Source: Volvox africanus (lineage: Eukaryota; Chlorophyta; Chlorophyceae; Chlamydomonadales; Volvocaceae). Taken from it: a stretch of DNA of 64,000 nucleotides. The notes under the pieces are model-generated. The model worked only from the letters and a program-made list of their open reading frames with translations, had not been told where the DNA came from and ran no database searches. The stretch spans positions 930,001 through 994,000 of the forward strand of contig BSDZ01000024.1 in assembly GCA_030268105.1 (NCBI GenBank), given 5' to 3'. Positions 15,301 through 42,108 of this stretch are shown in pieces. The first letter of the stretch is position 1; every line of letters starts with the position of its first letter. Position numbers and translations under genes: made by a program.

Positions 15301-18300
15301 TCAAGATCCAATCCTGGCCAACGATTAAGACATCGCAGGATGGACATGTACATAGATATAAAACAATTATCCAAGATAAATACATACTTAATATTACTAC
15401 ATTGAACACGAAAGAATACTTAATAACAGGCAATTTCGTTTGGGCCGTGCTTCCCGCCTCGCTGTGATATAGGATGGAAAATCAAAACTTTCGTTAGATT
15501 TGAGGATCGAGTTGTTGCTTCTTATTTATGCATGTACTTATGAAGCTGGTGGATTAATATATTTTAAAATGGATCCGACTCAGATGAATTTGAACGAATA
15601 ACAGATTTTCCACAAAACAACTGACGCCTCTATCTCACTGTTCAACAGGCGATGCAATCTGCCTGACACCATCAGTGGCACGCACCTGCTGCTCCGCCAA
15701 CTTGCCCACATTGGCCAGCAGCTGCTTCAGCTGCTCCTCAAGCGCCTTCACCTGGTCTCCCAGCTGACGGTTGCGAGAAGTGATAGCACCTGTGGCCGCC
15801 GCCAGCTCCGCAGCCGCTGCCGCCACTGAGTTGGCGGCTTTTGCTGTTGATGATGATGGCGCCGCCACCTTGCCGCCCTTCTTGTCTGAGGCAGTGGTCG
15901 CAGCGACAGTCTCCGCCGGGCGGTTTTGCTGGAGCTCCTTGATGCGCCGATCCAGCTCCGCCAGTGCAGCTGGCAGGGACGCGGCAAGCCGTGAGACGTC
16001 ATCGGCTGCGGAGGATCTGTCAGCAGCAGAGGAAGCAGCACCTGTTGCTACAACGGCAGCTCCAGGAGCACCTGATTGGCCACCTTTGCTGGTGCCAGCA
16101 ACTTGTGTAGATCCAAGGCTGGATCCAGATCCAGCAGCCTTCTTACCAACAGATCCTGTCTTCTCAGATCCGCCCTTAGGGTTGGAACTCCGCCCCCCAT
16201 CTGCTGAGGGCCTCGAAGGCAGGGAACCCTGTCCTGCTGCTGCCGGTGCCGCTGAAGCTGGTGATTCAACACCATCTTCCACAGAAGAAGCGACAGCTGC
16301 AGCCGCGGCCGCTGCTGCCGCCGACGCAGCTGCAGCCGCTGCAGCTACCTCAACCTCCAGCTGTTCTGCACGTTCCGCCGCCACTTCCGCTGCTGCCCGC
16401 GCCGCCGCCACATCGTCCTTGGCCTCATCCAGCCGTGCTCCACTCTCTGCCAGCTCCTTCTTAAGAGCCGCCATGAGGGCCTCTAACTGCTGCAGCCTCT
16501 CCCTGTCTTCAGCCGCAGCTGCAGCGAGTGCAGCCAAGTCAGCATCACTGGCACCAGCTCCAGCATCGGCTGCACCACCCCGGCCCCTGCGTGCGGCGTT
16601 CTTGAGGATCTCTCCCAGGGCCATTTGGATGGCGTTGATGTCGCCACGAATCCCAGCCAGCAGTGCGTCGCGGGCCGCCTTTCCAACTGCTGCCGTCTTC
16701 TTTTGCGCACCATCGTCACCTGCGGTGCCAGTACTGCTACTGCCACCTGCTACACCGCCATGAGCTGGCACCCCTGCATCCTGGCCTGAGCCCTGTGGCG
16801 TTGCCAGCGTAATTGAATCATTTTCACGTAATGATACAACACTATATATCCTGGCTGGGTAGTATGTATCAAGCAATGCTATCTATGTATCTACCTACCT
16901 ATCTACCTATTCATCTATCTATCTATTTGGCTGTCTGGCTGGATTCTATATTTATTTTATTTATTCCACTTGCAGCGCCTCAGTACCCGGATATTTGATA
17001 CAAATATATCGGATATCGAACGGTGTGAGACGTGTAATACGTGAGAGTGAGATTCACTTTCATATATCTGCACTGTGCAGCAAAATTGCTTCGGTACTTC
17101 GGCGCCCGCCATTGGAATAAACCCGCTATCTCACGGTTCAGTCATCTACTCGAAATATCCTGCAAATCGTTCGACAGGATACAACTCTCTGCTGCTTAAC
17201 TCGCTCACTCGTTTGTTCGGGCCTTCGACCCTCACTCACTCCTCACTCGCTCGTCCAGCAGCAGAGAGCCGTACCCTGTCTAACTCTTGGCAATATATTT
17301 CTCATATACTTCTTCCTGACCTCATATACTGAGATAGCTACTCCATAAATATAAATCTGCATGCCCGGCTGGGCATGTCGCACGCATGCAAGAATGAGAA
17401 TACAAATATGATCCCTCGGCACACAGCCTGTTGTATCATGCCCTTAACGCAGGGGGTTCGGAAATTCATGAAAGGAATATACATCTTAATCCTATATGCA
17501 ATGTAATGGTAGAGCTTAAGACACATACCTGCTGTTCCGCCAGCTTGCCCACATTGGCCAGCAGCTGCTTCAGCTGCTCCTCAAGCGCCTTCACCTGGTC
17601 TCCCAGCTGACGGTTGCGAGCGGTAATAGCACCTGTCGCTGCCGCCAGCTCCGCAGCCGCTGCCGCCACTGAGTTGGCGGCTTTTGCTGTTGATGAGGAT
17701 GGCGCCGCCACCTTGCCGCCCTTCTTGTCTGTGGCAGTGGTCGCAGGCCCCTCGTCCGCCGGGCGGTTTTGCTGGAGCTCCTTGATGCGCCGATCCAGCT
17801 CCGCCAGTGCAGCTGGCAGGGACGCGGCAAGGCGCGCCACATCGTCTGTCACATCAGAACCAGGCAAGACCCCCGGTTTACTCGTGCCACTGCTAACAGC
17901 CGCATCTTTCCGCGATCCATCGGTTCTTCCAGCAGGTACAGCCGTACTGGATTGACCCACAGCCTTTGAGCTCTGCACTGTGTCTGCCGCGGGCTGTGTT
18001 GGTGAGGACAGCTGTTCTGCCGCCGCTGCTGAAACATCACCACTGTCATCTGCAGAAGTAACAGCTGCAGCTGCGGCAGCAGCCGCAGCCGATGCTGCAG
18101 CGGCAGCCGCTGCCACCTCAACCTCCAACTGCTCGGCACGATCGGCAGCTGCCTCCGCTGCCGCCCGTGCTGCTGCCGCGTCGTCCTGGGTAGCTTTGTG
18201 CCCCGTCCGCAACGCCGCCATGAGGGCCTCTAACTGCCGCAGCCTCTCCCTGTCTTCAGCCGCAGCTGCAGCGAGTGCAGCCAGGGCGGCATCACTGGCA

Positions 18301-21300
18301 ACAGCTCCAGCACCGGCTGCACCACCCCGGCCCCTGCGTGCGGCATTCTTGAGGATCTCTCCCAGGGCCATTTGGATGGCGTTGATGTCGCCACGAATCC
18401 CAGCCAGCAGTGCGTCGCGGGCCGCCTTTCCAATAATTGGCTTTTTTTGCGCATCATGGCCGCTTGCATTACTGGTTGCAGTGCCACTAGTATTGCTACT
18501 GCCTCCTGCTGCTCCGCCATGGGCTGTTGGCACCCCAGCATCCTGGCCCGAGCCCTGTTGCGGTACCACCGTAGTGCAACCGTTCTCACATGCATTATTG
18601 AAGGAAGAACCACAGCAATTGGTTTAAAACCCTAAAACCCTACAACCCTTAAAACCGTGTACCAGCGCCTATGCCAACACTGTCGGCACCATACGTTCGG
18701 TTAACATCTAGAAAATGGCACGGTATTAGCAACGTATAAACGCCAATCGATAAAGTTTTGACACGCATGCGCTGTATGGGCTGTTGGAAGTTGCTGCTTG
18801 TTTGGACAACGTATGTGACCATGTGGTCCATTCCCTCTCTCACACCCACTCTTTCCTTCCATCTTTCTTTCCTCCAACACATGTGCTGATAGTTCTAAAT
18901 GACCGTGGCCTACTTCCCGAAAGACCCCAAAGGATGCACATGCAACTACTCTTGAAAATCTAACAGCACAGAAAACGTCAGATACTCCGCCCTCACGGCT
19001 AAGCAGGCGATATTTTCGTGCACACCTTCTGTTCCGCCAGCTTCCCCACATTGGCCAGCAGCTGCTTCAGCTGCTCCTCGAGCGCCTTCACCTGGTCTCC
19101 CAGCTGACGGTTGCGAGAAGTGATAGCACCTGTCGCAGACGCCAGCTCTGCAGCCGCTGCCGCCACTGAGTTGGCGGCTATTGCTGTTGATGAGGATGGC
19201 GCCGCCACCTTGCCGCCCTTCTGGTCTGAGGCAGTGGTCGCAGCGGCAGTCTCCGCCGGGCGGTTTTGCTGGAGCTCCTTGATGCGCCGATCCAGCTCCG
19301 CCAGTGCAGCTGGCAGGGACGCGGCAAGCCGTGAGACGTCATCCATGGCGACAGAGCTGCTGTCCCCGGGCAATTGTCCGGCACTGGTCTTAGATCCGAT
19401 GGTCGCATCAGACCAAGCGGTACGGCCTCCTGTAGGGGCTCCTGAAGCCCATGCTGGGTCAGCTGCGGTGCCAGTCGGCGATGTCAGCTGTCGCATTGCC
19501 ATGTCGCCATCGTCCGTGGAAGTGACAGCCGCAGCGGCAGCTGCTGCTGCCGCCGACGCCGCTGCGGCCGCAGCCGCCACCTCGACCTCTAATTGCTCTG
19601 CGCGTTCCACTGCCGCCTCTGCTGCAGCTCGGGCAGCGGCAGCATCATCCTTAGCACCCTTCTGTTCCTTCTGTAGTGCGGCCACAATGTCCTGCAACTT
19701 CTTAACCTTCTCCCTGTCTTCAGCCGCAGCTGCAGCAAGCGCAGCCAAGTCAGCATCACTGGCACCAGCTCCAGCACCGGCGGCGCCACCCCGGCCCCTG
19801 CGTGCAGCGTTCTTGAGGATCTCTCCCAGGGCCATTTGGATGGCGTTGATATCGCCACGAATGCCAGCCAGCAGTGCATCGCGGGCCGCCTTGCCTGCGG
19901 GATTGGCAGTCTTGCTAGCAGCACCTGCAGCCGCCGTCGCCACTCCCTTCTTCTGCTGGTCGCTACTGATGCTATTCGCCGTGGCACCACCAGCGGGGGC
20001 CTTATGAACATCACTGGCAGACGCTGTCCCCTCGTCCTTACTGTCACCCTACGGCGGTACCACATCATGTAGGCATCAGGACAGTTACGAGTACAAATTG
20101 GTTTAAGGGCCTGCAAGGACAGCAACGAAGGCTACCTGGAGCTAGGACAGCTTGCGTATCACGCACTGGAGCAGCGTGTGACAGGGCTGGGTCGTAATGG
20201 AGCTCATGATGACGGCTGTGAGTGACCCTTCCGAAGCCACCACCGCAGAGGACTGACACCGCAGATTTATCAACAAGTTCATGGACGTAATAAATTTGGC
20301 AGTTACGTCCATGACCCGGCACACTAGCTATTACCCTTACTCTCTTGCAATCCCTACCTTTTTTCCTAAAACTGTGAAAACGAGCAAAGCAAGACACCCG
20401 TCCGTCCATATTGGATCAAGTGCACTTGTTTCACACACGTATAAGCGGGGGCTTTTCGCGCGTGGCAATAATTGATACGCACCTGTTGTTCTGACAGCTT
20501 GCCCACATTGGCCAGCAGCTGCTTCAGCTGCTCCTCAAGCGCCTTCACCTGGTCTCCCAGCTGACGGTTGCGAGCGGTAATAGCACCTGTCGCAGACGCC
20601 AGCTCCGCAGCCGCTGCCGCCACTGAGTTGGCGGCTTTTGCTGTTGATGATGATGGCGCCGCCACCTTGCCGCCCTTCTTGTCTGTGGCAGTGGTCGCAG
20701 GCCCCTCGTCCGCCGGGCGGTTTCGCTGGAGCTCCTTGATGCGCCGATCCAGCTCCGCCAGTGCAGCTGGCAGGGACGCGGCAAGGCGCGCCACATCGTC
20801 TGTCACATCAGAACCAGGCAAGACCCCCGGTTTACTCGTGCCACTGCTAACAGCCGCATCTTTCCGCGATCCATCGGTTCTTCCAGCAGGTACAGCCGTA
20901 CTGGATTGACCCACAGCCTTTGAGCTCTGCACTGTGTCTGCCGCGGGCTGTGTTGGTGAGGACAGCTGTTCTGCCGCCGCTGCTGAAACATCACCACTGT
21001 CATCTGCAGAAGTAACAGCTGCAGCTGCGGCAGCAGCCGCAGCCGATGCTGCAGCGGCAGCCGCTGCCACCTCAACCTCCAACTGCTCGGCACGATCGGC
21101 AGCTGCCTCCGCTGCCGCCCGTGCTGCTGCCGCGTCGTCCTGGGTAGCTTTGTGCCCCGTCCGCAACGCCGCCATGAGGGCCTCTAACTGCCGCAGCCTC
21201 TCCCTGTCTTCAGCCGCAGCTGCAGCGAGTGCAGCCAGGGCGGCATCACTGGCAACAGCTCCAGCACCGGCTGCACCACCCCGGCCCCTGCGTGCGGCGT

Positions 21301-24300
21301 TCTTGAGGATCTCTCCCAGGGCCATTTGGATGGCGTTGATGTCGCCACGAATCCCAGCCAGCAGTGCGTCGCGGGCCGCCTTTCCAATAATTGGCTTTTT
21401 TTGCGCATCATGGCCGCTTGCATTACTGGTTGCAGTGCCACTAGTATTGCTACTGCCTCCTGCTGCTCCGCCATGGGCTGTTGGCACCCCAGCATCCTGG
21501 CCCGAGCCCTGTTGCGGTACCACCGTAGTGCAACCGTTCTCACATGCATTATTGAAGGAAGAACCACAGCAATTGGTTTAAAACCCTAAAACCCTACAAC
21601 CCTTAAAACCGTGTACCAGCGCCTATGCCAACACTGTCGGCACCATACGTTCGGTTAACATCTAGAAAATGGATCAGATTTGCGTTGATAATACCGAACT
21701 AGCTACTCCTTTGCCGTCATCGGTTAAATATCGCTCCGCCGCCGTACCTTTCAGCTTGTTCTGCAATTCTTCAAGGTTTGCTTCAATGGCTAACCCCTTT
21801 AAGGCCGATAAGCGGGTATTGCCCCTATTAATAAGGTGCTCTGTACAGGCATTGAAAACATATTGTGCCGATTGCTCCTAGAAGGGGTCGGAATACGACC
21901 TGCTACGCTTTCTGTTAAAACTAAATAGTATTTTAGAGAATCTCTCCAGTTCTTCAGGGGTAGAGCAATCTTGCCAGAAATCCCAGTTCTTACTTCGTCC
22001 GTCAAAAGGATTGAAGATAATATCCCCGCGCTCCGGGTTATAATATCTTGCTATTATCTCTCCTGTCTGGTCAATAATAATAGCCGGTTGGTCTTGCTGT
22101 TTTACTTGGGGTAATAGGTTATGGACAAGGTTGGTTTTTCCTGAGCCGGTAGAACCCATGATTAGAAAATGTCTGGTTTCACTGTCCCTAACTAAGGGCA
22201 TATTACCGATGCGCAAGCTACTATCTTTGCCCATTAGCTGTAATTTAAGTTTTACCTGCAAAGGAGTTAATACTTCACTGCTCCCTTCTTTCTTTTTATT
22301 ATTTTTGAGATTACTGCCAAAATAACTCCAGATAATAAATACAATAAGGAGAACACCACCACCGAATACTAAAGATTTAAGACCGAATATTTTTGCCTCG
22401 TTTATAGCTGTGTTTCAAGCGGTTTTAAACAACCCGCTATTAGTTACGCCATAAGCAGATATGTTCTTTTGCCATATCTTCCCGTTTGAATAAGCATCAA
22501 CTACCAGTCTTGACTTACTGATGGATATAGCCGATAGAGCAGGATGTACTGTTATAACAATTTGTGCCTTGGCATAGGTAAAAGCCCCGTCTATGTCTAC
22601 CTGTTTGCTACTTTGATGGTAAAAGCTCCAAGCAAGGATTATTCCTGTTACTAAGGATACAGAAACAGTAGTCCGTAGTACCTGACGGGACATTCTTACT
22701 TTATGCAGGAATACTTGGCCTCCGCCAATGAAATTATTTAACATTAGCTTGCTCTTTTTAATCTGCTTATTTCAGAGTGTTCCTTTCTTGCAAACCAGTT
22801 CTGTATATACTTTTTGGCTATTTCACTATTATTTACAATAATAACGTTTTCGGTATTTCTGATATCTGCGTAGGTAGTAAAGTTGAAACTACCGGTAATG
22901 ACTTTCTGTTTATCGATGATTATTATTTTGTTGTGAGCAATTCCTGAAACACTATCTATATCTACCTCAATACCTGCTTCTCTAAAATCTCTCATCTTTG
23001 AATGTTTTGCACCGATATTGCTTTTATCAAGTAATACTCTAACTTTTACTCCTCGATTATGAGCATTAATAAGTGCTTTTGCTATTTCTCCTGAAGTAAA
23101 ACCGTAGGCCTGAACATATATGGAATCCTGTGCCTTGGATATCTGATTGGCTATAACCGCTCCGCATCCTGATGGGGGAGTAAAACACGTGCCGATTTCG
23201 CTGTTGCCGATTAATATGGGGGTCACTTCCCTTGTAGCTTGAGGTTTTAAATAATCGTCTAAAAATCCTAGGACATCTCGGTTATTACCTGCGTATCCTA
23301 TAAATATCCCTACTAGCAATGATATTGTTATGACATTAAATAAGTTGCGGTATTTTCTTTTTGACATAAGCTTATACTTTTCTTGGCTAAAACCTTAGTT
23401 CGTTTTTACGTTAACATCCTATCAACAGATATAATTTGCTTAATATCTGCTCTATACTCTTTTCATCCAGCTTGTCTATTTTACGTGCGTTTCTAGCTTC
23501 CCAATCTAAAGAACGAACCTGATCACATAAAACAGCACCTTGGATTGTTTTTAGATTTATTTTGAACTCAAAAGGATAACCTTTAACTTTACTGGTAATA
23601 GGAAGGAAAATAGCCAGATTAGTTTTCAATGCAAGGATCAAGATTAAAACTTGGTAGTTGCACACCGAGCGGTTGTAAATCCATCGGTCTTGGTCCTCTG
23701 CTGATAATAGATCCTCCCGTCATATACCCCGCTTTCTGGTCACTGATCACCGCTCCCTTGTTGATACTGGTCATTGAGCCGCCTCTAGCCCCGAATTTCA
23801 TAAAATTATCCAGACCGCCTGCAAATACTTCAGTTGTTGCTAGCAGGGAAAGTATTATCAGTACTAATCCGCATCTTATAAGTGCAAGTTGGTACCCCAC
23901 AACAACTCTAAAATCCCAAATCAACATTTTTGGGTCTTCTTCCGCGTGGAGCTTTATATATTTTCCCATACACTTACCTCTTCACTGCTAATCGTTGTTT
24001 TTCCATGCTATAGGCATGTCCCAGCACTACGTTATTATGAAGCTCGGAAAGACTTATGAACCCTCTTGCCAGCTCAAATAACTCACTTGCATCCTTACTT
24101 ATTGCAACTAATGTCGGGACGGCCTTAATCCCAAGTTGCGCTGCTATCTTTCCTTGCGGAGTATCAAGACCTGTCACACTTAAAGTAAACCCGTATTCTT
24201 TGGCAAAGTTGTTTACAACAGGCATAAACCCTTTACAGTAATGACAATCGTCATTTGCAAACAGCACCAGATCGAACTTGCTTGCAAATTCCCTGATTAT

Positions 24301-27300
24301 TTTTATTTTCTCTTCTTCGGCTACCTTACGCTTGATTTTATTGGCAAACACGTTAGTAGGCAGTTCAATCTCATCGGCTATTTCAGGATTGGTAAAATTA
24401 GCCATATCACTTGCATTTGATAGACGAATAGTCCCGTCATACATTTCCTGTTCCAGTTTCTTGTATTTTACTGTTGCCTCTCTTAAGAGCTGAGGCGGCG
24501 TATCCTTTCTAAAGGCAAGCTCGATCATCTGGTTTCTTGCATCATCCAGAACTTTACGCCTTGTCTCTATGGCTTTTTCCGCTTCAAGAGGTGTAGGTAT
24601 ATAATCTTCCTGCGTTTTACTTTGATCACCGTAAGCTTTATCCTCAAACCAGTAAAAACCGCGATATCTTTCACTCCCTTGGTAAAAATGACCGGCGTTT
24701 GCCCTAGCCTCATATGTAGTTGCAAGGATTAAAATAAGAATAATTTTACTAATATTTCTGCTCATAATACTTCTCATTTCCCTTGTGTTTTAGAGAGACG
24801 ATCAAAAGAGTTTTGGACTCTCATTTCTACGTCATTAATATTCGGCATAACCACTTTGCCAAATATTTCCGCAGCAAGAGCAGAAAAATCTATCTGACTA
24901 AAATCTACTAAACTTAAGTCTTCTATAGTAAGGCCTCTACAATATGGATTATTGTCGCTACCGAATCCTTCAGGGCCGGGAAAATGCCCACGAAGAGCAG
25001 GTTGTAACCTCGCCTGAATCTGAATAATCTTCTCCAGCATATTGGAAAAGCAGCAATAATAATGGTATTAGCAACGTATAAACGCCAATCGATAAAGTTT
25101 TGACACGCATGCGCTGTATGGGCTGTTGGAAGTTGCTGCTTGTTTGGACAACGTATGTGACCATGTGGTCCATTCCCTCTCTCACACCCACTCTTTCCTT
25201 CCATCTTTCTTTCCTCCAACACATGTGCTGATAGTTCTAAATGACCGTGGCCTACTTCCCGAAAGACCCCAAAGGATGCACATGCAACTACTCTTGAAAA
25301 TCTAACAGCACAGAAAACGTCAGATACTCCGCCCTCACGGCTAAGCAGGCGATATTTTCGTGCACACCTTCTGTTCCGCCAGCTTCCCCACATTGGCCAG
25401 CAGCTGCTTCAGCTGCTCCTCGAGCGCCTTCACCTGGTCTCCCAGCTGACGGTTGCGAGAAGTGATAGCACCTGTCGCAGACGCCAGCTCTGCAGCCGCT
25501 GCCGCCACTGAGTTGGCGGCTATTGCTGTTGATGAGGATGGCGCCGCCACCTTGCCGCCCTTCTGGTCTGAGGCAGTGGTCGCAGCGGCAGTCTCCGCCG
25601 GGCGGTTTTGCTGGAGCTCCTTGATGCGCCGATCCAGCTCCGCCAGTGCAGCTGGCAGGGACGCGGCAAGCCGTGAGACGTCATCCATGGCGACAGAGCT
25701 GCTGTCCCCGGGCAATTGTCCGGCACTGGTCTTAGATCCGATGGTCGCATCAGACCAAGCGGTACGGCCTCCTGTAGGGGCTCCTGAAGCCCATGCTGGG
25801 TCAGCTGCGGTGCCAGTCGGCGATGTCAGCTGTCGCATTGCCATGTCGCCATCGTCCGTGGAAGTGACAGCCGCAGCGGCAGCTGCTGCTGCCGCCGACG
25901 CCGCTGCGGCCGCAGCCGCCACCTCGACCTCTAATTGCTCTGCGCGTTCCACTGCCGCCTCTGCTGCAGCTCGGGCAGCGGCAGCATCATCCTTAGCACC
26001 CTTCTGTTCCTTCTGTAGTGCGGCCACAATGTCCTGCAACTTCTTAACCTTCTCCCTGTCTTCAGCCGCAGCTGCAGCAAGCGCAGCCAAGTCAGCATCA
26101 CTGGCACCAGCTCCAGCACCGGCGGCGCCACCCCGGCCCCTGCGTGCAGCGTTCTTGAGGATCTCTCCCAGGGCCATTTGGATGGCGTTGATATCGCCAC
26201 GAATGCCAGCCAGCAGTGCATCGCGGGCCGCCTTGCCTGCGGGATTGGCAGTCTTGCTAGCAGCACCTGCAGCCGCCGTCGCCACTCCCTTCTTCTGCTG
26301 GTCGCTACTGATGCTATTCGCCGTGGCACCACCAGCGGGGGCCTTATGAACATCACTGGCAGACGCTGTCCCCTCGTCCTTACTGTCACCCTACGGCGGT
26401 ACCACATCATGTAGGCATCAGGACAGTTACGAGTACAAATTGGTTTAAGGGCCTGCAAGGACAGCAACGAAGGCTACCTGGAGCTAGGACAGCTTGCGTA
26501 TCACGCACTGGAGCAGCGTGTGACAGGGCTGGGTCGTAATGGAGCTCATGATGACGGCTGTGAGTGACCCTTCCGAAGCCACCACCGCAGAGGACTGACA
26601 CCGCAGATTTATCAACAAGTTCATGGACGTAATAAATTTGGCAGTTACGTCCATGACCCGGCACACTAGCTATTACCCTTACTCTCTTGCAATCCCTACC
26701 TTTTTTCCTAAAACTGTGAAAACGAGCAAAGCAAGACACCCGTCCGTCCATATTGGATCAAGTGCACTTGTTTCACACACGTATAAGCGGGGGCTTTTCG
26801 CGCGTGGCAATAATTGATACGCACCTGTTGTTCTGACAGCTTGCCCACATTGGCCAGCAGCTGCTTCAGCTGCTCCTCAAGCGCCTTCACCTGGTCTCCC
26901 AGCTGACGGTTGCGAGCGGTAATAGCACCTGTCGCAGACGCCAGCTCCGCAGCCGCTGCCGCCACTGAGTTGGCGGCTTTTGCTGTTGATGATGATGGCG
27001 CCGCCACCTTGCCGCCCTTCTTGTCTGTGGCAGTGGTCGCAGGCCCCTCGTCCGCCGGGCGGTTTCGCTGGAGCTCCTTGATGCGCCGATCCAGCTCCGC
27101 CAGTGCAGCTGGCAGGGACGCGGCAAGGCGCGCCACATCGTCTGTCACATCAGAACCAGGCAAGACCCCCGGTTTACTCGTGCCACTGCTAACAGCCGCA
27201 TCTTTCCGCGATCCATCGGTTCTTCCAGCAGGTACAGCCGTACTGGATTGACCCACAGCCTTTGAGCTCTGCACTGTGTCTGCCGCGGGCTGTGTTGGTG

Positions 27301-30300
27301 AGGACAGCTGTTCTGCCGCCGCTGCTGAAACATCACCACTGTCATCTGCAGAAGTAACAGCTGCAGCTGCGGCAGCAGCCGCAGCCGATGCTGCAGCGGC
27401 AGCCGCTGCCACCTCAACCTCCAACTGCTCGGCACGATCGGCAGCTGCCTCCGCTGCCGCCCGTGCTGCTGCCGCGTCGTCCTGGGTAGCTTTGTGCCCC
27501 GTCCGCAACGCCGCCATGAGGGCCTCTAACTGCCGCAGCCTCTCCCTGTCTTCAGCCGCAGCTGCAGCGAGTGCAGCCAGGGCGGCATCACTGGCAACAG
27601 CTCCAGCACCGGCTGCACCACCCCGGCCCCTGCGTGCGGCGTTCTTGAGGATCTCTCCCAGGGCCATTTGGATGGCGTTGATGTCGCCACGAATCCCAGC
27701 CAGCAGTGCGTCGCGGGCCGCCTTTCCAATAATTGGCTTTTTTTGCGCATCATGGCCGCTTGCATTACTGGTTGCAGTGCCACTAGTATTGCTACTGCCT
27801 CCTGCTGCTCCGCCATGGGCTGTTGGCACCCCAGCATCCTGGCCCGAGCCCTGTTGCGGTACCACCGTAGTGCAACCGTTCTCACATGCATTATTGAAGG
27901 AAGAACCACAGCAATTGGTTTAAAACCCTAAAACCCTACAACCCTTAAAACCGTGTACCAGCGCCTATGCCAACACTGTCGGCACCATACGTTCGGTTAA
28001 CATCTAGAAAATGGATCAGATTTGCGTTGATAATACCGAACTAGCTACTCCTTTGCCGTCATCGGTTAAATATCGCTCCGCCGCCGTACCTTTCAGCTTG
28101 TTCTGCAATTCTTCAAGGTTTGCTTCAATGGCTAACCCCTTTAAGGCCGATAAGCGGGTATTGCCCCTATTAATAAGGTGCTCTGTACAGGCATTGAAAA
28201 CATATTGTGCCGATTGCTCCTAGAAGGGGTCGGAATACGACCTGCTACGCTTTCTGTTAAAACTAAATAGTATTTTAGAGAATCTCTCCAGTTCTTCAGG
28301 GGTAGAGCAATCTTGCCAGAAATCCCAGTTCTTACTTCGTCCGTCAAAAGGATTGAAGATAATATCCCCGCGCTCCGGGTTATAATATCTTGCTATTATC
28401 TCTCCTGTCTGGTCAATAATAATAGCCGGTTGGTCTTGCTGTTTTACTTGGGGTAATAGGTTATGGACAAGGTTGGTTTTTCCTGAGCCGGTAGAACCCA
28501 TGATTAGAAAATGTCTGGTTTCACTGTCCCTAACTAAGGGCATATTACCGATGCGCAAGCTACTATCTTTGCCCATTAGCTGTAATTTAAGTTTTACCTG
28601 CAAAGGAGTTAATACTTCACTGCTCCCTTCTTTCTTTTTATTATTTTTGAGATTACTGCCAAAATAACTCCAGATAATAAATACAATAAGGAGAACACCA
28701 CCACCGAATACTAAAGATTTAAGACCGAATATTTTTGCCTCGTTTATAGCTGTGTTTCAAGCGGTTTTAAACAACCCGCTATTAGTTACGCCATAAGCAG
28801 ATATGTTCTTTTGCCATATCTTCCCGTTTGAATAAGCATCAACTACCAGTCTTGACTTACTGATGGATATAGCCGATAGAGCAGGATGTACTGTTATAAC
28901 AATTTGTGCCTTGGCATAGGTAAAAGCCCCGTCTATGTCTACCTGTTTGCTACTTTGATGGTAAAAGCTCCAAGCAAGGATTATTCCTGTTACTAAGGAT
29001 ACAGAAACAGTAGTCCGTAGTACCTGACGGGACATTCTTACTTTATGCAGGAATACTTGGCCTCCGCCAATGAAATTATTTAACATTAGCTTGCTCTTTT
29101 TAATCTGCTTATTTCAGAGTGTTCCTTTCTTGCAAACCAGTTCTGTATATACTTTTTGGCTATTTCACTATTATTTACAATAATAACGTTTTCGGTATTT
29201 CTGATATCTGCGTAGGTAGTAAAGTTGAAACTACCGGTAATGACTTTCTGTTTATCGATGATTATTATTTTGTTGTGAGCAATTCCTGAAACACTATCTA
29301 TATCTACCTCAATACCTGCTTCTCTAAAATCTCTCATCTTTGAATGTTTTGCACCGATATTGCTTTTATCAAGTAATACTCTAACTTTTACTCCTCGATT
29401 ATGAGCATTAATAAGTGCTTTTGCTATTTCTCCTGAAGTAAAACCGTAGGCCTGAACATATATGGAATCCTGTGCCTTGGATATCTGATTGGCTATAACC
29501 GCTCCGCATCCTGATGGGGGAGTAAAACACGTGCCGATTTCGCTGTTGCCGATTAATATGGGGGTCACTTCCCTTGTAGCTTGAGGTTTTAAATAATCGT
29601 CTAAAAATCCTAGGACATCTCGGTTATTACCTGCGTATCCTATAAATATCCCTACTAGCAATGATATTGTTATGACATTAAATAAGTTGCGGTATTTTCT
29701 TTTTGACATAAGCTTATACTTTTCTTGGCTAAAACCTTAGTTCGTTTTTACGTTAACATCCTATCAACAGATATAATTTGCTTAATATCTGCTCTATACT
29801 CTTTTCATCCAGCTTGTCTATTTTACGTGCGTTTCTAGCTTCCCAATCTAAAGAACGAACCTGATCACATAAAACAGCACCTTGGATTGTTTTTAGATTT
29901 ATTTTGAACTCAAAAGGATAACCTTTAACTTTACTGGTAATAGGAAGGAAAATAGCCAGATTAGTTTTCAATGCAAGGATCAAGATTAAAACTTGGTAGT
30001 TGCACACCGAGCGGTTGTAAATCCATCGGTCTTGGTCCTCTGCTGATAATAGATCCTCCCGTCATATACCCCGCTTTCTGGTCACTGATCACCGCTCCCT
30101 TGTTGATACTGGTCATTGAGCCGCCTCTAGCCCCGAATTTCATAAAATTATCCAGACCGCCTGCAAATACTTCAGTTGTTGCTAGCAGGGAAAGTATTAT
30201 CAGTACTAATCCGCATCTTATAAGTGCAAGTTGGTACCCCACAACAACTCTAAAATCCCAAATCAACATTTTTGGGTCTTCTTCCGCGTGGAGCTTTATA

Positions 30301-33300
30301 TATTTTCCCATACACTTACCTCTTCACTGCTAATCGTTGTTTTTCCATGCTATAGGCATGTCCCAGCACTACGTTATTATGAAGCTCGGAAAGACTTATG
30401 AACCCTCTTGCCAGCTCAAATAACTCACTTGCATCCTTACTTATTGCAACTAATGTCGGGACGGCCTTAATCCCAAGTTGCGCTGCTATCTTTCCTTGCG
30501 GAGTATCAAGACCTGTCACACTTAAAGTAAACCCGTATTCTTTGGCAAAGTTGTTTACAACAGGCATAAACCCTTTACAGTAATGACAATCGTCATTTGC
30601 AAACAGCACCAGATCGAACTTGCTTGCAAATTCCCTGATTATTTTTATTTTCTCTTCTTCGGCTACCTTACGCTTGATTTTATTGGCAAACACGTTAGTA
30701 GGCAGTTCAATCTCATCGGCTATTTCAGGATTGGTAAAATTAGCCATATCACTTGCATTTGATAGACGAATAGTCCCGTCATACATTTCCTGTTCCAGTT
30801 TCTTGTATTTTACTGTTGCCTCTCTTAAGAGCTGAGGCGGCGTATCCTTTCTAAAGGCAAGCTCGATCATCTGGTTTCTTGCATCATCCAGAACTTTACG
30901 CCTTGTCTCTATGGCTTTTTCCGCTTCAAGAGGTGTAGGTATATAATCTTCCTGCGTTTTACTTTGATCACCGTAAGCTTTATCCTCAAACCAGTAAAAA
31001 CCGCGATATCTTTCACTCCCTTGGTAAAAATGACCGGCGTTTGCCCTAGCCTCATATGTAGTTGCAAGGATTAAAATAAGAATAATTTTACTAATATTTC
31101 TGCTCATAATACTTCTCATTTCCCTTGTGTTTTAGAGAGACGATCAAAAGAGTTTTGGACTCTCATTTCTACGTCATTAATATTCGGCATAACCACTTTG
31201 CCAAATATTTCCGCAGCAAGAGCAGAAAAATCTATCTGACTAAAATCTACTAAACTTAAGTCTTCTATAGTAAGGCCTCTACAATATGGATTATTGTCGC
31301 TACCGAATCCTTCAGGGCCGGGAAAATGCCCACGAAGAGCAGGTTGTAACCTCGCCTGAATCTGAATAATCTTCTCCAGCATATTGGAAAAGCAGCAATA
31401 ATAATGGTATTAGCAACGTATAAACGCCAATCGATAAAGTTTTGACACGCATGCGCTGTATGGGCTGTTGGAAGTTGCTGCGTGTTTGGACAACGTATGT
31501 GACCATGTGGTCCATTCCCTCTCTCACACCCACTCTTTCCTTCCATCTTTCTTTCCTCCAACACATGTGCTGATAGTTCTAAATGACCGTGGCCTACTTC
31601 CCGAAAGACCCCAAAGGATGCACATGCAACTACTCTTGAAAATCTAACAGCACAGAAAACGTCAGATACTCCGCCCTCACGGCTAAGCAGGCGATATTTT
31701 CGTGCACACCTTCTGTTCCGCCAGCTTCCCCACATTGGCCAGCAGCTGCTTCAGCTGCTCCTCAAGCGCCTTCACCTGGTCTCCCAGCTGACGGTTGCGA
31801 GAAGTGATAGCACCTGTCGCAGACGCCAGCTCTGCAGCCGCTGCCGCCACTGAGTTGGCGGCTATTGCTGTTGATGAGGATGGCGCCGCCACCTTGCCGC
31901 CCTTCTGGTCTGAGGCAGTGGTCGCAGCGGCAGTCTCCGCCGGGCGGTTTTGCTGGAGCTCCTTGATGCGCCGATCCAGCTCCGCCAGTGCAGCTGGCAG
32001 GGACGCGGCAAGCCGTGAGACGTCATCCATGGCGACAGAGCTGCTGTCCCCGGGCAATGGTCCGGCACTGGTCTTAGATCCGATGGTCGCATCAGACCAA
32101 GCGGTACGGCCTCCTGTAGGGGCTCCTGAAGCCCATGCTGGGTCAGCTGCGGTGCCAGTCGGCGATGTCAGCTGTCGCATTGCCATGTCGCCATCGTCCG
32201 TGGAAGTGACAGCCGCAGCGGCAGCTGCTGCTGCCGCCGACGCCGCTGCGGCCGCAGCCGCCACCTCGACCTCTAATTGCTCTGCGCGTTCCACTGCCGC
32301 CTCTGCTGCAGCTCGGGCAGCGGCAGCATCATCCTTAGCACCCTTCTGTTCCTTCTGTAGTGCGGCCACAATGTCCTGCAACTTCTTAACCTTCTCCCTG
32401 TCTTCAGCCGCAGCTGCAGCAAGCGCAGCCAAGTCAGCATCACTGGCACCAGCTCCAGCACCGGCGGCGCCACCCCGGCCCCTGCGTGCAGCGTTCTTGA
32501 GGATCTCTCCCAGGGCCATTTGGATGGCGTTGATATCGCCACGAATGCCAGCCAGCAGTGCATCGCGGGCCGCCTTGCCTGCGGGATTGGCAGTCTTGCT
32601 AGCAGCACCTGCAGCCGCCGTCGCCACTCCCTTCTTCTGCTGGTCGCTACTGATGCTATTCGCCGTGGCACCACCAGCGGGGGCCTTATGAACATCACTG
32701 GCAGACGCTGTCCCCTCGTCCTTACTGTCACCCTACGGCGGTACCACATCATGTAGGCATCAGGACAGTTACGAGTACAAATTGGTTTAAGGGCCTGCAA
32801 GGACAGCAACGAAGGCTACCTGGAGCTAGGACAGCTTGCGTATCACGCACTGGAGCAGCGTGTGACAGGGCTGGGTCGTAATGGAGCTCATGATGACGGC
32901 TGTGAGTGACCCTTCCGAAGCCACCACCGCAGAGGACTGACACCGCAGATTTATCAACAAGTTCATGGACGTAATAAATTTGGCAGTTACGTCCATGACC
33001 CGGCACACTAGCTATTACCCTTACTCTCTTGCAATCCCTACCTTTTTTCCTAAAACTGTGAAAACGAGCAAAGCAAGACACCCGTCCGTCCATATTGGAT
33101 CAAGTGCACTTGTTTCACACACGTATAAGCGGGGGCTTTTCGCGCGTGGCAATAATTGATACGCACCTGTTGTTCTGACAGCTTGCCCACATTGGCCAGC
33201 AGCTGCTTCAGCTGCTCCTCAAGCGCCTTCACCTGGTCTCCCAGCTGACGGTTGCGAGCGGTAATAGCACCTGTCGCAGACGCCAGCTCCGCAGCCGCTG

Positions 33301-36300
33301 CCGCCACTGAGTTGGCGGCTTTTGCTGTTGATGATGATGGCGCCGCCACCTTGCCGCCCTTCTTGTCTGTGGCAGTGGTCGCAGGCCCCTCGTCCGCCGG
33401 GCGGTTTCGCTGGAGCTCCTTGATGCGCCGATCCAGCTCCGCCAGTGCAGCTGGCAGGGACGCGGCAAGGCGCGCCACATCGTCTGTCACATCAGAACCA
33501 GGCAAGACCCCCGGTTTACTCGTGCCACTGCTAACAGCCGCATCTTTCCGCGATCCATCGGTTCTTCCAGCAGGTACAGCCGTACTGGATTGACCCACAG
33601 CCTTTGAGCTCTGCACTGTGTCTGCCGCGGGCTGTGTTGGTGAGGACAGCTGTTCTGCCGCCGCTGCTGAAACATCACCACTGTCATCTGCAGAAGTAAC
33701 AGCTGCAGCTGCGGCAGCAGCCGCAGCCGATGCTGCAGCGGCAGCCGCTGCCACCTCAACCTCCAACTGCTCGGCACGATCGGCAGCTGCCTCCGCTGCC
33801 GCCCGTGCTGCTGCCGCGTCGTCCTGGGTAGCTTTGTGCCCCGTCCGCAACGCCGCCATGAGGGCCTCTAACTGCCGCAGCCTCTCCCTGTCTTCAGCCG
33901 CAGCTGCAGCGAGTGCAGCCAGGGCGGCATCACTGGCAACAGCTCCAGCACCGGCTGCACCACCCCGGCCCCTGCGTGCGGCGTTCTTGAGGATCTCTCC
34001 CAGGGCCATTTGGATGGCGTTGATGTCGCCACGAATCCCAGCCAGCAGTGCGTCGCGGGCCGCCTTTCCAATAATTGGCTTTTTTTGCGCATCATGGCCG
34101 CTTGCATTACTGGTTGCAGTGCCACTAGTATTGCTACTGCCTCCTGCTGCTCCGCCATGGGCTGTTGGCACCCCAGCATCCTGGCCCGAGCCCTGTTGCG
34201 GTACCACCGTAGTGCAACCGTTCTCACATGCATTATTGAAGGAAGAACCACAGCAATTGGTTTAAAACCCTAAAACCCTACAACCCTTAAAACCGTGTAC
34301 CAGCGCCTATGCCAACACTGTCGGCACCATACGTTCGGTTAACATCTAGAAAATGGATCAGATTTGCGTTGATAATACCGAACTAGCTACTCCTTTGCCG
34401 TCATCGGTTAAATATCGCTCCGCCGCCGTACCTTTCAGCTTGTTCTGCAATTCTTCAAGGTTTGCTTCAATGGCTAACCCCTTTAAGGCCGATAAGCGGG
34501 TATTGCCCCTATTAATAAGGTGCTCTGTACAGGCATTGAAAACATATTGTGCCGATTGCTCCTAGAAGGGGTCGGAATACGACCTGCTACGCTTTCTGTT
34601 AAAACTAAATAGTATTTTAGAGAATCTCTCCAGTTCTTCAGGGGTAGAGCAATCTTGCCAGAAATCCCAGTTCTTACTTCGTCCGTCAAAAGGATTGAAG
34701 ATAATATCCCCGCGCTCCGGGTTATAATATCTTGCTATTATCTCTCCTGTCTGGTCAATAATAATAGCCGGTTGGTCTTGCTGTTTTACTTGGGGTAATA
34801 GGTTATGGACAAGGTTGGTTTTTCCTGAGCCGGTAGAACCCATGATTAGAAAATGTCTGGTTTCACTGTCCCTAACTAAGGGCATATTACCGATGCGCAA
34901 GCTACTATCTTTGCCCATTAGCTGTAATTTAAGTTTTACCTGCAAAGGAGTTAATACTTCACTGCTCCCTTCTTTCTTTTTATTATTTTTGAGATTACTG
35001 CCAAAATAACTCCAGATAATAAATACAATAAGGAGAACACCACCACCGAATACTAAAGATTTAAGACCGAATATTTTTGCCTCGTTTATAGCTGTGTTTC
35101 AAGCGGTTTTAAACAACCCGCTATTAGTTACGCCATAAGCAGATATGTTCTTTTGCCATATCTTCCCGTTTGAATAAGCATCAACTACCAGTCTTGACTT
35201 ACTGATGGATATAGCCGATAGAGCAGGATGTACTGTTATAACAATTTGTGCCTTGGCATAGGTAAAAGCCCCGTCTATGTCTACCTGTTTGCTACTTTGA
35301 TGGTAAAAGCTCCAAGCAAGGATTATTCCTGTTACTAAGGATACAGAAACAGTAGTCCGTAGTACCTGACGGGACATTCTTACTTTATGCAGGAATACTT
35401 GGCCTCCGCCAATGAAATTATTTAACATTAGCTTGCTCTTTTTAATCTGCTTATTTCAGAGTGTTCCTTTCTTGCAAACCAGTTCTGTATATACTTTTTG
35501 GCTATTTCACTATTATTTACAATAATAACGTTTTCGGTATTTCTGATATCTGCGTAGGTAGTAAAGTTGAAACTACCGGTAATGACTTTCTGTTTATCGA
35601 TGATTATTATTTTGTTGTGAGCAATTCCTGAAACACTATCTATATCTACCTCAATACCTGCTTCTCTAAAATCTCTCATCTTTGAATGTTTTGCACCGAT
35701 ATTGCTTTTATCAAGTAATACTCTAACTTTTACTCCTCGATTATGAGCATTAATAAGTGCTTTTGCTATTTCTCCTGAAGTAAAACCGTAGGCCTGAACA
35801 TATATGGAATCCTGTGCCTTGGATATCTGATTGGCTATAACCGCTCCGCATCCTGATGGGGGAGTAAAACACGTGCCGATTTCGCTGTTGCCGATTAATA
35901 TGGGGGTCACTTCCCTTGTAGCTTGAGGTTTTAAATAATCGTCTAAAAATCCTAGGACATCTCGGTTATTACCTGCGTATCCTATAAATATCCCTACTAG
36001 CAATGATATTGTTATGACATTAAATAAGTTGCGGTATTTTCTTTTTGACATAAGCTTATACTTTTCTTGGCTAAAACCTTAGTTCGTTTTTACGTTAACA
36101 TCCTATCAACAGATATAATTTGCTTAATATCTGCTCTATACTCTTTTCATCCAGCTTGTCTATTTTACGTGCGTTTCTAGCTTCCCAATCTAAAGAACGA
36201 ACCTGATCACATAAAACAGCACCTTGGATTGTTTTTAGATTTATTTTGAACTCAAAAGGATAACCTTTAACTTTACTGGTAATAGGAAGGAAAATAGCCA

Positions 36301-39300
36301 GATTAGTTTTCAATGCAAGGATCAAGATTAAAACTTGGTAGTTGCACACCGAGCGGTTGTAAATCCATCGGTCTTGGTCCTCTGCTGATAATAGATCCTC
36401 CCGTCATATACCCCGCTTTCTGGTCACTGATCACCGCTCCCTTGTTGATACTGGTCATTGAGCCGCCTCTAGCCCCGAATTTCATAAAATTATCCAGACC
36501 GCCTGCAAATACTTCAGTTGTTGCTAGCAGGGAAAGTATTATCAGTACTAATCCGCATCTTATAAGTGCAAGTTGGTACCCCACAACAACTCTAAAATCC
36601 CAAATCAACATTTTTGGGTCTTCTTCCGCGTGGAGCTTTATATATTTTCCCATACACTTACCTCTTCACTGCTAATCGTTGTTTTTCCATGCTATAGGCA
36701 TGTCCCAGCACTACGTTATTATGAAGCTCGGAAAGACTTATGAACCCTCTTGCCAGCTCAAATAACTCACTTGCATCCTTACTTATTGCAACTAATGTCG
36801 GGACGGCCTTAATCCCAAGTTGCGCTGCTATCTTTCCTTGCGGAGTATCAAGACCTGTCACACTTAAAGTAAACCCGTATTCTTTGGCAAAGTTGTTTAC
36901 AACAGGCATAAACCCTTTACAGTAATGACAATCGTCATTTGCAAACAGCACCAGATCGAACTTGCTTGCAAATTCCCTGATTATTTTTATTTTCTCTTCT
37001 TCGGCTACCTTACGCTTGATTTTATTGGCAAACACGTTAGTAGGCAGTTCAATCTCATCGGCTATTTCAGGATTGGTAAAATTAGCCATATCACTTGCAT
37101 TTGATAGACGAATAGTCCCGTCATACATTTCCTGTTCCAGTTTCTTGTATTTTACTGTTGCCTCTCTTAAGAGCTGAGGCGGCGTATCCTTTCTAAAGGC
37201 AAGCTCGATCATCTGGTTTCTTGCATCATCCAGAACTTTACGCCTTGTCTCTATGGCTTTTTCCGCTTCAAGAGGTGTAGGTATATAATCTTCCTGCGTT
37301 TTACTTTGATCACCGTAAGCTTTATCCTCAAACCAGTAAAAACCGCGATATCTTTCACTCCCTTGGTAAAAATGACCGGCGTTTGCCCTAGCCTCATATG
37401 TAGTTGCAAGGATTAAAATAAGAATAATTTTACTAATATTTCTGCTCATAATACTTCTCATTTCCCTTGTGTTTTAGAGAGACGATCAAAAGAGTTTTGG
37501 ACTCTCATTTCTACGTCATTAATATTCGGCATAACCACTTTGCCAAATATTTCCGCAGCAAGAGCAGAAAAATCTATCTGACTAAAATCTACTAAACTTA
37601 AGTCTTCTATAGTAAGGCCTCTACAATATGGATTATTGTCGCTACCGAATCCTTCAGGGCCGGGAAAATGCCCACGAAGAGCAGGTTGTAACCTCGCCTG
37701 AATCTGAATAATCTTCTCCAGCATATTGGAAAAGCAGCAATAATAATGGTATTAGCAACGTATAAACGCCAATCGATAAAGTTTTGACACGCATGCGCTG
37801 TATGGGCTGTTGGAAGTTGCTGCGTGTTTGGACAACGTATGTGACCATGTGGTCCATTCCCTCTCTCACACCCACTCTTTCCTTCCATCTTTCTTTCCTC
37901 CAACACATGTGCTGATAGTTCTAAATGACCGTGGCCTACTTCCCGAAAGACCCCAAAGGATGCACATGCAACTACTCTTGAAAATCTAACAGCACAGAAA
38001 ACGTCAGATACTCCGCCCTCACGGCTAAGCAGGCGATATTTTCGTGCACACCTTCTGTTCCGCCAGCTTCCCCACATTGGCCAGCAGCTGCTTCAGCTGC
38101 TCCTCAAGCGCCTTCACCTGGTCTCCCAGCTGACGGTTGCGAGAAGTGATAGCACCTGTCGCAGACGCCAGCTCTGCAGCCGCTGCCGCCACTGAGTTGG
38201 CGGCTATTGCTGTTGATGAGGATGGCGCCGCCACCTTGCCGCCCTTCTGGTCTGAGGCAGTGGTCGCAGCGGCAGTCTCCGCCGGGCGGTTTTGCTGGAG
38301 CTCCTTGATGCGCCGATCCAGCTCCGCCAGTGCAGCTGGCAGGGACGCGGCAAGCCGTGAGACGTCATCCATGGCGACAGAGCTGCTGTCCCCGGGCAAT
38401 GGTCCGGCACTGGTCTTAGATCCGATGGTCGCATCAGACCAAGCGGTACGGCCTCCTGTAGGGGCTCCTGAAGCCCATGCTGGGTCAGCTGCGGTGCCAG
38501 TCGGCGATGTCAGCTGTCGCATTGCCATGTCGCCATCGTCCGTGGAAGTGACAGCCGCAGCGGCAGCTGCTGCTGCCGCCGACGCCGCTGCGGCCGCAGC
38601 CGCCACCTCGACCTCTAATTGCTCTGCGCGTTCCACTGCCGCCTCTGCTGCAGCTCGGGCAGCGGCAGCATCATCCTTAGCACCCTTCTGTTCCTTCTGT
38701 AGTGCGGCCACAATGTCCTGCAACTTCTTAACCTTCTCCCTGTCTTCAGCCGCAGCTGCAGCAAGCGCAGCCAAGTCAGCATCACTGGCACCAGCTCCAG
38801 CACCGGCGGCGCCACCCCGGCCCCTGCGTGCAGCGTTCTTGAGGATCTCTCCCAGGGCCATTTGGATGGCGTTGATATCGCCACGAATGCCAGCCAGCAG
38901 TGCATCGCGGGCCGCCTTGCCTGCGGGATTGGCAGTCTTGCTAGCAGCACCTGCAGCCGCCGTCGCCACTCCCTTCTTCTGCTGGTCGCTACTGATGCTA
39001 TTCGCCGTGGCACCACCAGCGGGGGCCTTATGAACATCACTGGCAGACGCTGTCCCCTCGTCCTTACTGTCACCCTACGGCGGTACCACATCATGTAGGC
39101 ATCAGGACAGTTACGAGTACAAATTGGTTTAAGGGCCTGCAAGGACAGCAACGAAGGCTACCTGGAGCTAGGACAGCTTGCGTATCACGCACTGGAGCAG
39201 CGTGTGACAGGGCTGGGTCGTAATGGAGCTCATGATGACGGCTGTGAGTGACCCTTCCGAAGCCACCACCGCAGAGGACTGACACCGCAGATTTATCAAC

Positions 39301-42108
39301 AAGTTCATGGACGTAATAAATTTGGCAGTTACGTCCATGACCCGGCACACTAGCTATTACCCTTACTCTCTTGCAACCCCTACCTTTTTTCCTAAAACTG
39401 TGAAAACGAGCCAAGCAAGACACCCGTCCGTCCATATTGGATCAAGTGCACTTGTTTCACACACGTATAAGCGGGGGCTTTTCGCGCGTGGCAATAATTG
39501 ATACGCACCTGTTGTTCTGACAGCTTGCCCACATTGGCCAGCAGCTGCTTCAGCTGCTCCTCAAGCGCCTTCACCTGGTCTCCCAGCTGACGGTTGCGAG
39601 CGGTAATAGCACCTGTCGCAGACGCCAGCTCCGCAGCCGCTGCCGCCACTGAGTTGGCGGCTTTTGCTGTTGATGATGATGGCGCCGCCACCTTGCCGCC
39701 CTTCTTGTCTGTGGCAGTGGTCGCAGGCCCCTCGTCCGCCGGGCGGTTTTGCTGGAGCTCCTTGATGCGCCGATCCAGCTCCGCCAGTGCAGCTGGCAGG
39801 GACGCGGCTAGCCGTGCTATGTCGTCCGTGGCGGCAGAACTGCCGGCACCCTTGCCGGCAGGCAATCCAGCTCCGGATTCCCCGGAGACGACTTTGCCGC
39901 CCTCACCAAATCCCGCAGCTCTGGAACCAACTGAGACCTCTGATGCCCCCGCCGGATCTGTTATTGCCATCAATCCCATTCCCGCTGCTGACACATCACC
40001 ACTGCCATCAGCAGAAGCAATAGCCGCCGCAGCAGCAGCAGCAGCAGCCGATGCCGCAGCAGCCGCCGCTGCTGCCTCAAGCTGACCTTGCTCCGCGCGT
40101 TCTGCAGCGTCTGCTGCCACTGCCCGTGCCACAGCCGCATCATCTTTGGCGGCCTTTACGGCATCGAACGCCTCATTGGCACGCGCACCGCTGCCTGCCA
40201 ACTCCTTCTGCAGGGCCGCCACCAGGTCTTGAAGCTTCCGTAGCTTTTCCCTGTCTTCAGCCGCAGCTGCAGCGAGTGCAGCCAAGTCAGCATCACTGGC
40301 ACCAGCTCCAGCACCGGCGGCGCCACCCCGGCCCCTGCGTGCGGCGTTCTTGAGGATCTCTCCCAGAGCCATTTGGATGGCGTTGATGTCACCACGAATG
40401 CCAGCCAGCAGTGCGTCGCGGGCAGCCTTACTTGCGGCAGGAGCCTTACCAGGACCTCCTGCCGCCACCGCTGACTTCTGCTGCTGCTCCGTGGGAGCGG
40501 ACCTACCGCCGGCCGCTATACCAGCGGCACCATTAACCCCATCCGCACCGACGGCGCCTGTAGCACCGACGGCGCCTGCCGCTCCCATGGCTCCAGCAGC
40601 ACCATCCCTTGCCTCCATCGGTTGCTGCGGAACGGAGTCGGACATGAAGCTTCGGAAGTGGCACCCTGTCTCATGTAATCCTGTCACTTAAAATCCTGTC
40701 TCTTATCATCCTGTCTCTTATCATCTATTCGCTTATCATCCTTTCGCTTATAATCCTTTCGCTTATAATCCTGGGTGGGTTCACCCAGTAACGTAACATC
40801 CCGGCGGTACTTGCGAGGCCGGCATTACAGCCTAGGCCCGAGTGAACTAACTGATGAAAGTGTGTGTCCTAGGCATCGAGATAGCAACCCCTGAAGGGGA
40901 GATAAACTACAGCCCCCTACTTAAACAGTTCGTAGGACTTGGCAGCTATGGTATTAATTACCCATGACGCGTACCTGCTGCTCCGCCAGCTTGCCCACAT
41001 TGGCCAGCAGCTGCTTCAGCTGCTCCTCGAGCGCCTTCACCTGGTCTCCCAGCTGACGGTTGCGAGAAGTGATTGCACCTGTGGCCGCCGCCAGCTCCGC
41101 AGCCGCTGCCGCCACTGAGTTGGCGGCTATTGCTGTTGATGAGGATGGCGCCGCCACCTTGCCGCCCTTCTTGTCTGAGGCAGTGGTCGCAGCGGCAGTC
41201 TCCGCCGGGCGGTTTTGCTGGAGCTCCTTGATGCGCCGATCCAGCTCCGCCAGTGCAGCTGGCAGGGACGCGGCAAGGCGCGCCACATCATCAGCTGCGG
41301 TTGCGGAGCCGCTGGAGGCACCTGTGGTCATCGCACCGGAAACGTCTCCTGCTGGATTTCGTCCTGTGGATGAGACCCTCTGGGCGCCATTCACGTCGCC
41401 TCCCGACGAGGACGTCGAGTCTCCTTCGCCAGCCGTCTCCGCTTTGGACGTTGACGTGACAGCCGCAGCCGCGGCCGCTGCTGCCGCCGCTGCTGCTGCA
41501 GCCGCTGCAGCCACTTCTGCCTCCAGCTCCTCCGCACGCTGCGCGGCCGCCTCCGCTGCCGTCCGTACTGCAGCCGCATCCTCATCAACTGACTTAAGTT
41601 TCCCTTCTAGTGCCGCCACGCGACGCTCCAGCGCTGTCAGGCGATCCAAGTCCACGCCATCTCCCTTCTCACCCGCCAACCCATCTTTTCCATCCTTCCC
41701 GTCCTTTCCTGCAGAGGCCGCCACGCCGGCCAACGTCCCCAACGCCTTGAGCTGCTCCATTTGTTTCCTCTGCTCCGCCAGCTGCTGATCGCGCTGCGCC
41801 GCTGCGGCCTTGAGGTCGTCCAGTTCCTTGTCACGTTGCGCCGCTGCCGCGGCTGCTGCCGCCAGCTCTTTTTCGCGGCGGTCCCCTGCGGCCTTTTCCT
41901 TAGCGAGTCCAGCCTCACATGCAGCCAGCCGCTCCAGAATTGAGGTGGCAGACCCACGTCCAAGTTCACCTAAGGATGCGACGTCACCCTTGCCACCGGT
42001 TGCGGCGGCAGCGGCGGCCAGCTGAGCCGCCGCCGCGGTGGCACGGGCTTCCTCCAGGGCCGCAGCTTGTGCCTGCACAGCGCACGCAAGCAGGAGCAAT
42101 TTTGGAGC

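Follow-up and report, generated by a model that had tools for sequence, protein, structure and literature searches.

The analysed window, a 64,000-nucleotide stretch of the green alga Volvox africanus (assembly GCA_030268105.1, contig BSDZ01000024.1, forward-strand positions 930,001 to 994,000; G000:C24:930001-994000 in an assembly of 141.0 Mb and 126 contigs), contains a tandem array at positions 18722–39808 in which an AT-rich block of bacterial conjugation (tra) genes recurs three times between algal exons. Comparison of the window with itself aligned 18722–33466 with 25064–39808 at 99.96% identity, revealing a period of 6,342 bp and an organization of three full units followed by a partial fourth, near-identical units arranged head-to-tail and including host DNA, as in a tandem segmental duplication. 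The block, hereafter the insert, is 3,391 bp long and occupies positions 21673–25063, 28015–31405 and 34357–37747, exactly to the base where an initial annotation of the sequence had placed its three 3.39-kb AT-rich blocks; all three copies carry their genes on the minus strand and are identical in sequence. Units 1 and 2 show no difference over 6,342 bp. Three sites distinguish unit 3 from both, none of them within the insert, and the partial unit 4 differs from unit 3 at three sites. GC content drops from approximately 0.60 to approximately 0.38 across the insert before rising again, the insert as a whole averaging 39.3% as compared with 53.3% for window DNA outside the array.

The host sequence consists of two alternating exon types, both on the minus strand, each free of stop codons, of a length divisible by three, and bounded by AG/GT. 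Exon A (975 bp) lies at 25368–26342, with further copies at 19026–20000, 31710–32684 and 38052–39026, and exon B (1,026 bp) at 20483–21508, with further copies at 26825–27850 and 33167–34192; a fourth exon B, positioned from its border patterns at 17529–18554, stands beside an intron of 471 bp (18555–19025) that is empty of the insert. The corresponding intron holding insert copy 1 spans 3,859 bp (21509–25367, like the empty intron delimited by sequence borders) and separates exons A and B in phase 0, so that the earlier proposal of blocks wholly contained in introns between phase-consistent exons holds at the level of sequence. Since the ratio of nonsynonymous to synonymous substitution rates (dN/dS) between exons A and B is 0.26 (322 codons), the host locus looks like a constrained coding gene. 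Neither exon matched Pfam or NCBIfam at an E-value of 0.01, and a homology search with the joined exon A and exon B protein returned no relative. The exon B copies within the stretches 17527–18718 and 20481–21672 differ by 0.7%. Exons A and B are approximately 94% alike over their final 300 bp or so and approximately 81% alike in the remaining matching block, a pattern that suggests gene conversion between the exon modules.

The insertion-less copy, located upstream within the array, serves as an internal record of the uninterrupted intron. Its host sequence is unbroken apart from three base pairs (18719–18721), in whose place the insert stands elsewhere in the array, and comparison of this empty site with the filled copies revealed no target-site duplication. 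In the assembly the insert is thus covalently continuous with host DNA at either end, with base-exact borders repeated three times and an empty site for reference. The host flank at 18722–18734 begins GGTATTAGCAACG, and the insert end at 21673–21695 has GGTATTATCAACG on the other strand, an inverted similarity of 12 out of 13 bases that is probably due to chance and in part native traD sequence.

Gene content of the insert follows the order traN, traF, traH, mazF, a PLD/NucT-like gene, and traD, as given here for copy 1 (minus strand; copies 2 and 3 are offset by +6342 and +12684). It opens with a C-terminal traN fragment (24774–25063, TIGR02750 at 5e-11, some 96 codons by homology) and a whole open traF frame of 267 amino acids (23974–24777, PF13728 at 7.4e-29), which overlap by 4 bp. 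These are followed by an N-terminal traH fragment (23630–23969), whose match to PF06122 at 1.3e-4 falls under the cut-off of that family and whose first 90 bp or so are unmatched in five Megaera plasmids, and by a C-terminal mazF fragment (23403–23626, PF02452 at 1e-11). The PLD/NucT-like gene is again a whole open frame (207 amino acids, 22744–23367, PF13091 at 2.7e-27), overlapping by 1 bp an N-terminal part of traD (21684–22744, TIGR02759 at 4.6e-31 for the frame 21878–22261) that is cut at the insert end and contains two in-frame stops, but no frameshift. The F-type order and the operon-style start/stop overlaps described in the initial annotation are therefore present, while most of its genes turn out to be fragments and the mazF piece had escaped it. 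Functional F-type conjugation calls for a full tra set and an intact coupling protein, whereas here traN, traH and traD are fragmentary, traD is interrupted twice, and traG is missing. The Rickettsiales amplified genetic element (RAGE) comprises an integrase, a relaxase/traA and cargo around tra genes, and the insert, made up of these six gene pieces only, does not qualify as one.

The closest relatives of the insert reside on plasmids of a known endosymbiont lineage. In a sensitive DNA search five of 72,556 plasmid records matched, all from Candidatus Megaera (pPCS148, pPCS201, p1_M_poly_crypto, pMegNEIS296 and NDG2 unnamed1, obtained from PLSDB), with homology extending from insert base 1 to base 3380 of 3391, interrupted by unmatched gaps at 1089–1183, 1435–1437 and 1662–1682, and with nucleotide identities of 71–93% that vary by piece. 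The final 11 bases have no counterpart at the corresponding place of pPCS148, and may represent filler or donor variation. At the protein level the traN piece is 80.7% identical to its pPCS148 homolog over 88 residues, TraF 77.5%, and the traH piece 82.6% over 69 residues, while the mazF piece is closest to pPCS201 and p1_M_poly_crypto (92.9% in nucleotides, 98.6% in amino acids) and the PLD protein is 80–82% identical to those of four Megaera plasmids. More generally, the insert traN, traF, traH and traD are closest to pPCS148, and mazF and PLD to other Megaera plasmids, three of which encode a TraF only about 30% identical to that of the insert. The plasmids themselves differ in this region: p1_M_poly_crypto retains the full order traN-traF-traH-traG-transglycosylase-mazE-mazF-PLD-traD, interspersed with two or three additional genes, pPCS148 has neither mazEF nor PLD at the corresponding tra place, pPCS201 has lost traF, traH and traG from it, and two others of the five have no mazEF in their tra cluster. 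Compared with these clusters, the insert is devoid of traG, the transglycosylase, mazE, the rest of traH, and parts of traN, mazF and traD. As its pieces are closest to different Megaera plasmids, the donor appears from the sequence to have been a relative carrying a mixed tra cluster. The Megaira-type donor envisaged at the outset is thus upheld by the DNA search as well as by the TraF and PLD protein comparisons, with the refinement that the closest DNA is plasmid-borne and that the block is a deleted or joined version of it. The closest known TraF is a metagenomic protein (P0001, 99% identical) that differs at two residues, at which the insert TraF stands alone among 29 aligned sequences, and the closest PLD protein (P0120) is 94% identical. 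Two pattern searches of genome contigs (75 and 57 stretches matched) and one of viral contigs (55 stretches) confirmed no further TraF relatives.

Taken together, we consider the blocks to be a nuclear integrant of Candidatus Megaera plasmid DNA, captured by end joining, subsequently decayed, amplified together with two exons, and non-functional, and assign this reading a probability of roughly 86%. According to this scenario, a Megaera plasmid fragment with F-type tra genes would have been taken up where an intron of an algal gene with internal repeats had broken, in an end-joining manner that cost the host three base pairs, created no duplication and may have left some bases of filler at one border. 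At the traH–mazF junction, either two separate plasmid pieces would have been joined or intervening sequence deleted, whether already in the donor or during capture. Neutral decay would then have introduced the two stops into traD, and the near-identical exon modules may have allowed unequal crossing-over, or a comparable duplication process, to generate the threefold 6.34-kb unit of two exons and insert, the latter presumably being spliced out without effect. Identical copies sharing their borders, joint and stops point to a single capture before amplification, and three independent insertions were rejected because the borders are identical. Barring later homogenisation of the copies, this places capture and the decay of traD ahead of the amplification; by the same token, the identity of the copies implies that amplification was recent or that homogenisation occurred. 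The proposal that the conjugation genes had been amplified together with host exons thereby finds support in the 6,342-bp units and their identical inserts. Several observations sit less comfortably with this account. All five matching Megaera plasmids are typed as non-mobilizable (MOB-suite) despite their F-type tra genes, the traF and PLD frames remain open despite the two stops in traD, and the mixture of pieces with different plasmid affinities means that the traH–mazF joint cannot be placed. In addition, the borders between host and insert are those of the assembly and may, though this is improbable, reflect an assembly error.

Symbiont-like DNA is also found elsewhere in the assembly, which was searched with four plasmid regions of 19.9 kb each (three Megaera tra regions and an accessory region of pPCS148) and with 16S rRNA, the resulting match counts being lower bounds. 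The three tra-region queries gave 38, 40 and 31 matches, of which 12, 9 and 9 belong to the array and 26, 31 and 22 lie outside it; a control from Aquicella lusitana, likewise an F-type tra region (equal length, GC 38.2 versus 37.6%), gave none. The pPCS148 accessory region, nearly strain-specific and just partly represented on two other Megaera plasmids, gave one match. Merging the matches of two tra queries within 10 kb yielded 50 sites (the array taken as one) on 26 contigs, and at 32 of these at least one match lies outside mobile-element genes. When all plasmid queries and three 16S-like fragments are included, the census reaches 58 Megaera-like or rickettsia-like sites on 27 contigs, 57 of them besides the array. 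Matches are short, 31 of the 56 outside contig C24 being no longer than 100 bp, and no long Megaera contig was found with these queries, since plasmid matches beyond the array measure 37–677 bp each and the 16S matches are partial. Many of the 58 sites are 37–120 bp in length, and some abut pieces that are not neighbours in known plasmids. Flanks were inspected at 40 of the 50 plasmid-match sites. At some of them the piece is set in GC-rich flanks, as at L067, with successive GC contents of 62, 40 and 60%. At L073 (C15:2171478-2171640) two pPCS148 pieces that are non-neighbours in known plasmids abut in opposite orientation, and the same arrangement joins a pPCS148 piece to a pPCS201 piece at L054 (G000:C3:4143087-4143276). 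The abutting match ends overlap by 7 bp at L054 and by 4 bp at L073, as microhomology joints would.

At L031 (G000:C83:2704609-2705285), 677 bp match the integrase/transposase region of pPCS201 at 95% identity, whereas most other long pieces are far more divergent. A second and more decayed copy of traD, split by approximately 1.8 kb of other DNA, is found on contig C19 (L077, G000:C19:2555390-2558161); it is 89.7% identical over 725 bp and has a frameshift and stops of its own. Because this piece is open where the insert traD has its first stop, not every transferred copy shares this stop. PLD matches at the protein level are confined to the three array copies, the only other trace being a PLD-like scrap of 39 bp (C14:249136-249174).

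Bacterial 16S queries produced six matches in the assembly, and five loci were rescored, one of which (L050) holds two matches. Rfam models type two of these loci (L048 and L049) as pieces of eukaryotic 18S and two (L046 and L047) as partial bacterial sequences. Judging by eye from rRNA motifs, we take L046, L047 and L050 to share one rickettsia-like stretch. Among rRNA sequences of plasmid records, the L047 piece matched 555 records, the best 15 of the 555 reaching up to 87.5% identity and belonging to alphaproteobacterial genera. The presence of three rickettsia-like 16S fragments suggests that transfer was probably not restricted to plasmid DNA and took in chromosomal DNA too. An AT-rich stretch surrounds the 16S fragment at L047 (G000:C11:302863-306186), and 4 kb from it lies an 86% match to a helicase gene of pPCS148 (C11:308961-309135); together they look like a larger mosaic of symbiont DNA.

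The dozens of scraps outside the array suggest that much symbiont DNA reached the nucleus in the past. Whether the nuclear genome of the alga is pervasively seeded with endosymbiont DNA, used as a routine filler in break repair much as mitochondrial and plastid DNA are, is a finely balanced matter on which we lean slightly towards the affirmative. The empty answer of the Aquicella control is uninformative by itself, and 18 of the 50 plasmid-match sites rest on mobile-element genes only, which may be multicopy in Megaera and may derive from elsewhere than its plasmids. One of the 40 flank-inspected sites (L089) showed no Megaera match by blastn, several short matches lie in AT-rich surroundings, which at some sites may be larger mosaics, and the 16S-like locus L050 scored best with an archaeal model; all these weaken the census. 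If pervasive seeding is true, extrapolation to the whole symbiont genome would predict many hundreds of insertions, and the nuclear genome would preserve the traces of several Megaera infections, including one that reshaped the introns of a gene by amplification.

That the captured DNA itself stems from a tra cluster, and that tra-region queries of about 20 kb recur 26, 31 and 22 times outside the array, invites the thought that the plasmid was delivered actively between kingdoms by its own conjugation machinery, rather than taken up passively after symbiont lysis. This we consider improbable, given the non-mobilizable typing of the matching plasmids and the three rickettsia-like 16S fragments, which suggest chromosomal transfer too; the single match of the accessory region is of little help in judging an enrichment of tra DNA, given its near strain-specificity. 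Less probable still is an assembly chimera, in which the assembler would have wrongly fused an endosymbiont contig to algal DNA and inflated the repeat. While the identity of units 1 and 2 over 6,342 bp is what such an artefact might produce, it would also have to account for the same base-exact borders occurring three times next to an empty copy, for differences between units that form a gradient, and for 57 other short Megaera-like sites on contigs of up to 7.9 Mb, in an assembly in which these queries found no endosymbiont contig. It is hard to credit that the insert was retained for function, the alga expressing TraF or the PLD nuclease: these two frames are indeed open while traD is broken, but they are AT-rich, intronless bacterial genes inside a host intron, their neighbours are fragmentary, and the copies, being identical, are unable to show selection. 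Multiplication by a host transposable element, to which the presence of several copies might point, can practically be dismissed, as the empty site shows a 3-bp replacement with no target-site duplication, the copies are tandem and include host exons, and PLD beyond the array is limited to the 39-bp scrap.

Integration of plasmid DNA, the reading we prefer, has partial precedents. Kawafune et al. (2015, PMC4324946) described a region of approximately 9 kb with rickettsial genes (16S-murB-ddlB-ftsQ) in the nuclear genome of Volvox carteri strain EVE and reported related pieces from further strains. As portrayed in the main text of that report, it resembles the present case in its Megaira-type donor, its location in a green-algal nuclear genome and its mostly truncated pieces, 16S included, and differs from it in that here plasmid conjugation genes are intronic, tandemly amplified and accompanied by a census of 58 sites; the terms conjuga, traD, traF and tandem are absent from that main text. 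MurB_C, expected from the published EVE insertion, had no match in the assembly (the control was positive in 10 of 14 genomes), and an EVE-like V. carteri genome was accordingly judged unlikely. Amplified Wolbachia DNA (nuwt) on chromosome 4 of Drosophila ananassae (Klasson et al. 2014, PMC4299567) is likewise endosymbiont DNA present in the nucleus in numerous copies, which in one line are almost the same, whereas here a 3.4-kb plasmid piece was copied with host exons inside a gene. A plant-lineage mitochondrial genome containing Rickettsiales DNA, including P-type virB8 and virB9, shares the Rickettsiales origin but differs in its donors (Caedibacter-like and a Rickettsiaceae isolate), and amplification in introns is not described in the portion of the account at hand. 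The initial annotation had regarded amplification of captured conjugation genes with host exons as undescribed; nuclear Megaira-type DNA and amplified endosymbiont DNA are in fact both published, whereas no publication describing conjugation genes from the nuclear genome of an alga was found in searches that mostly did not cover subscription journals and preprints. As far as these searches show, the new elements are the plasmid conjugation genes, the intron amplification with its empty-site control, and the apparent scale.

The locus thus offers an exactly bounded transfer from endosymbiont to nucleus, for which the array itself supplies an empty-site control and which was recently amplified. 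It suggests that an alga with a present or past facultative symbiont can receive the DNA of this symbiont about as freely as that of its organelles, and if this is true, it would become possible to measure in a green alga how fast and by what mechanism endosymbiotic genes are transferred from a non-organelle source. On a practical note, AT-rich bacterial genes in algal assemblies are not necessarily contamination. Elsewhere in the window, at approximately 56905–62500, lies a long minisatellite with a 21-bp repeat (254 overlapping 300-nucleotide matches, its core approximately 99% identical) that displays extreme strand asymmetry, with a GC skew of approximately +0.73.

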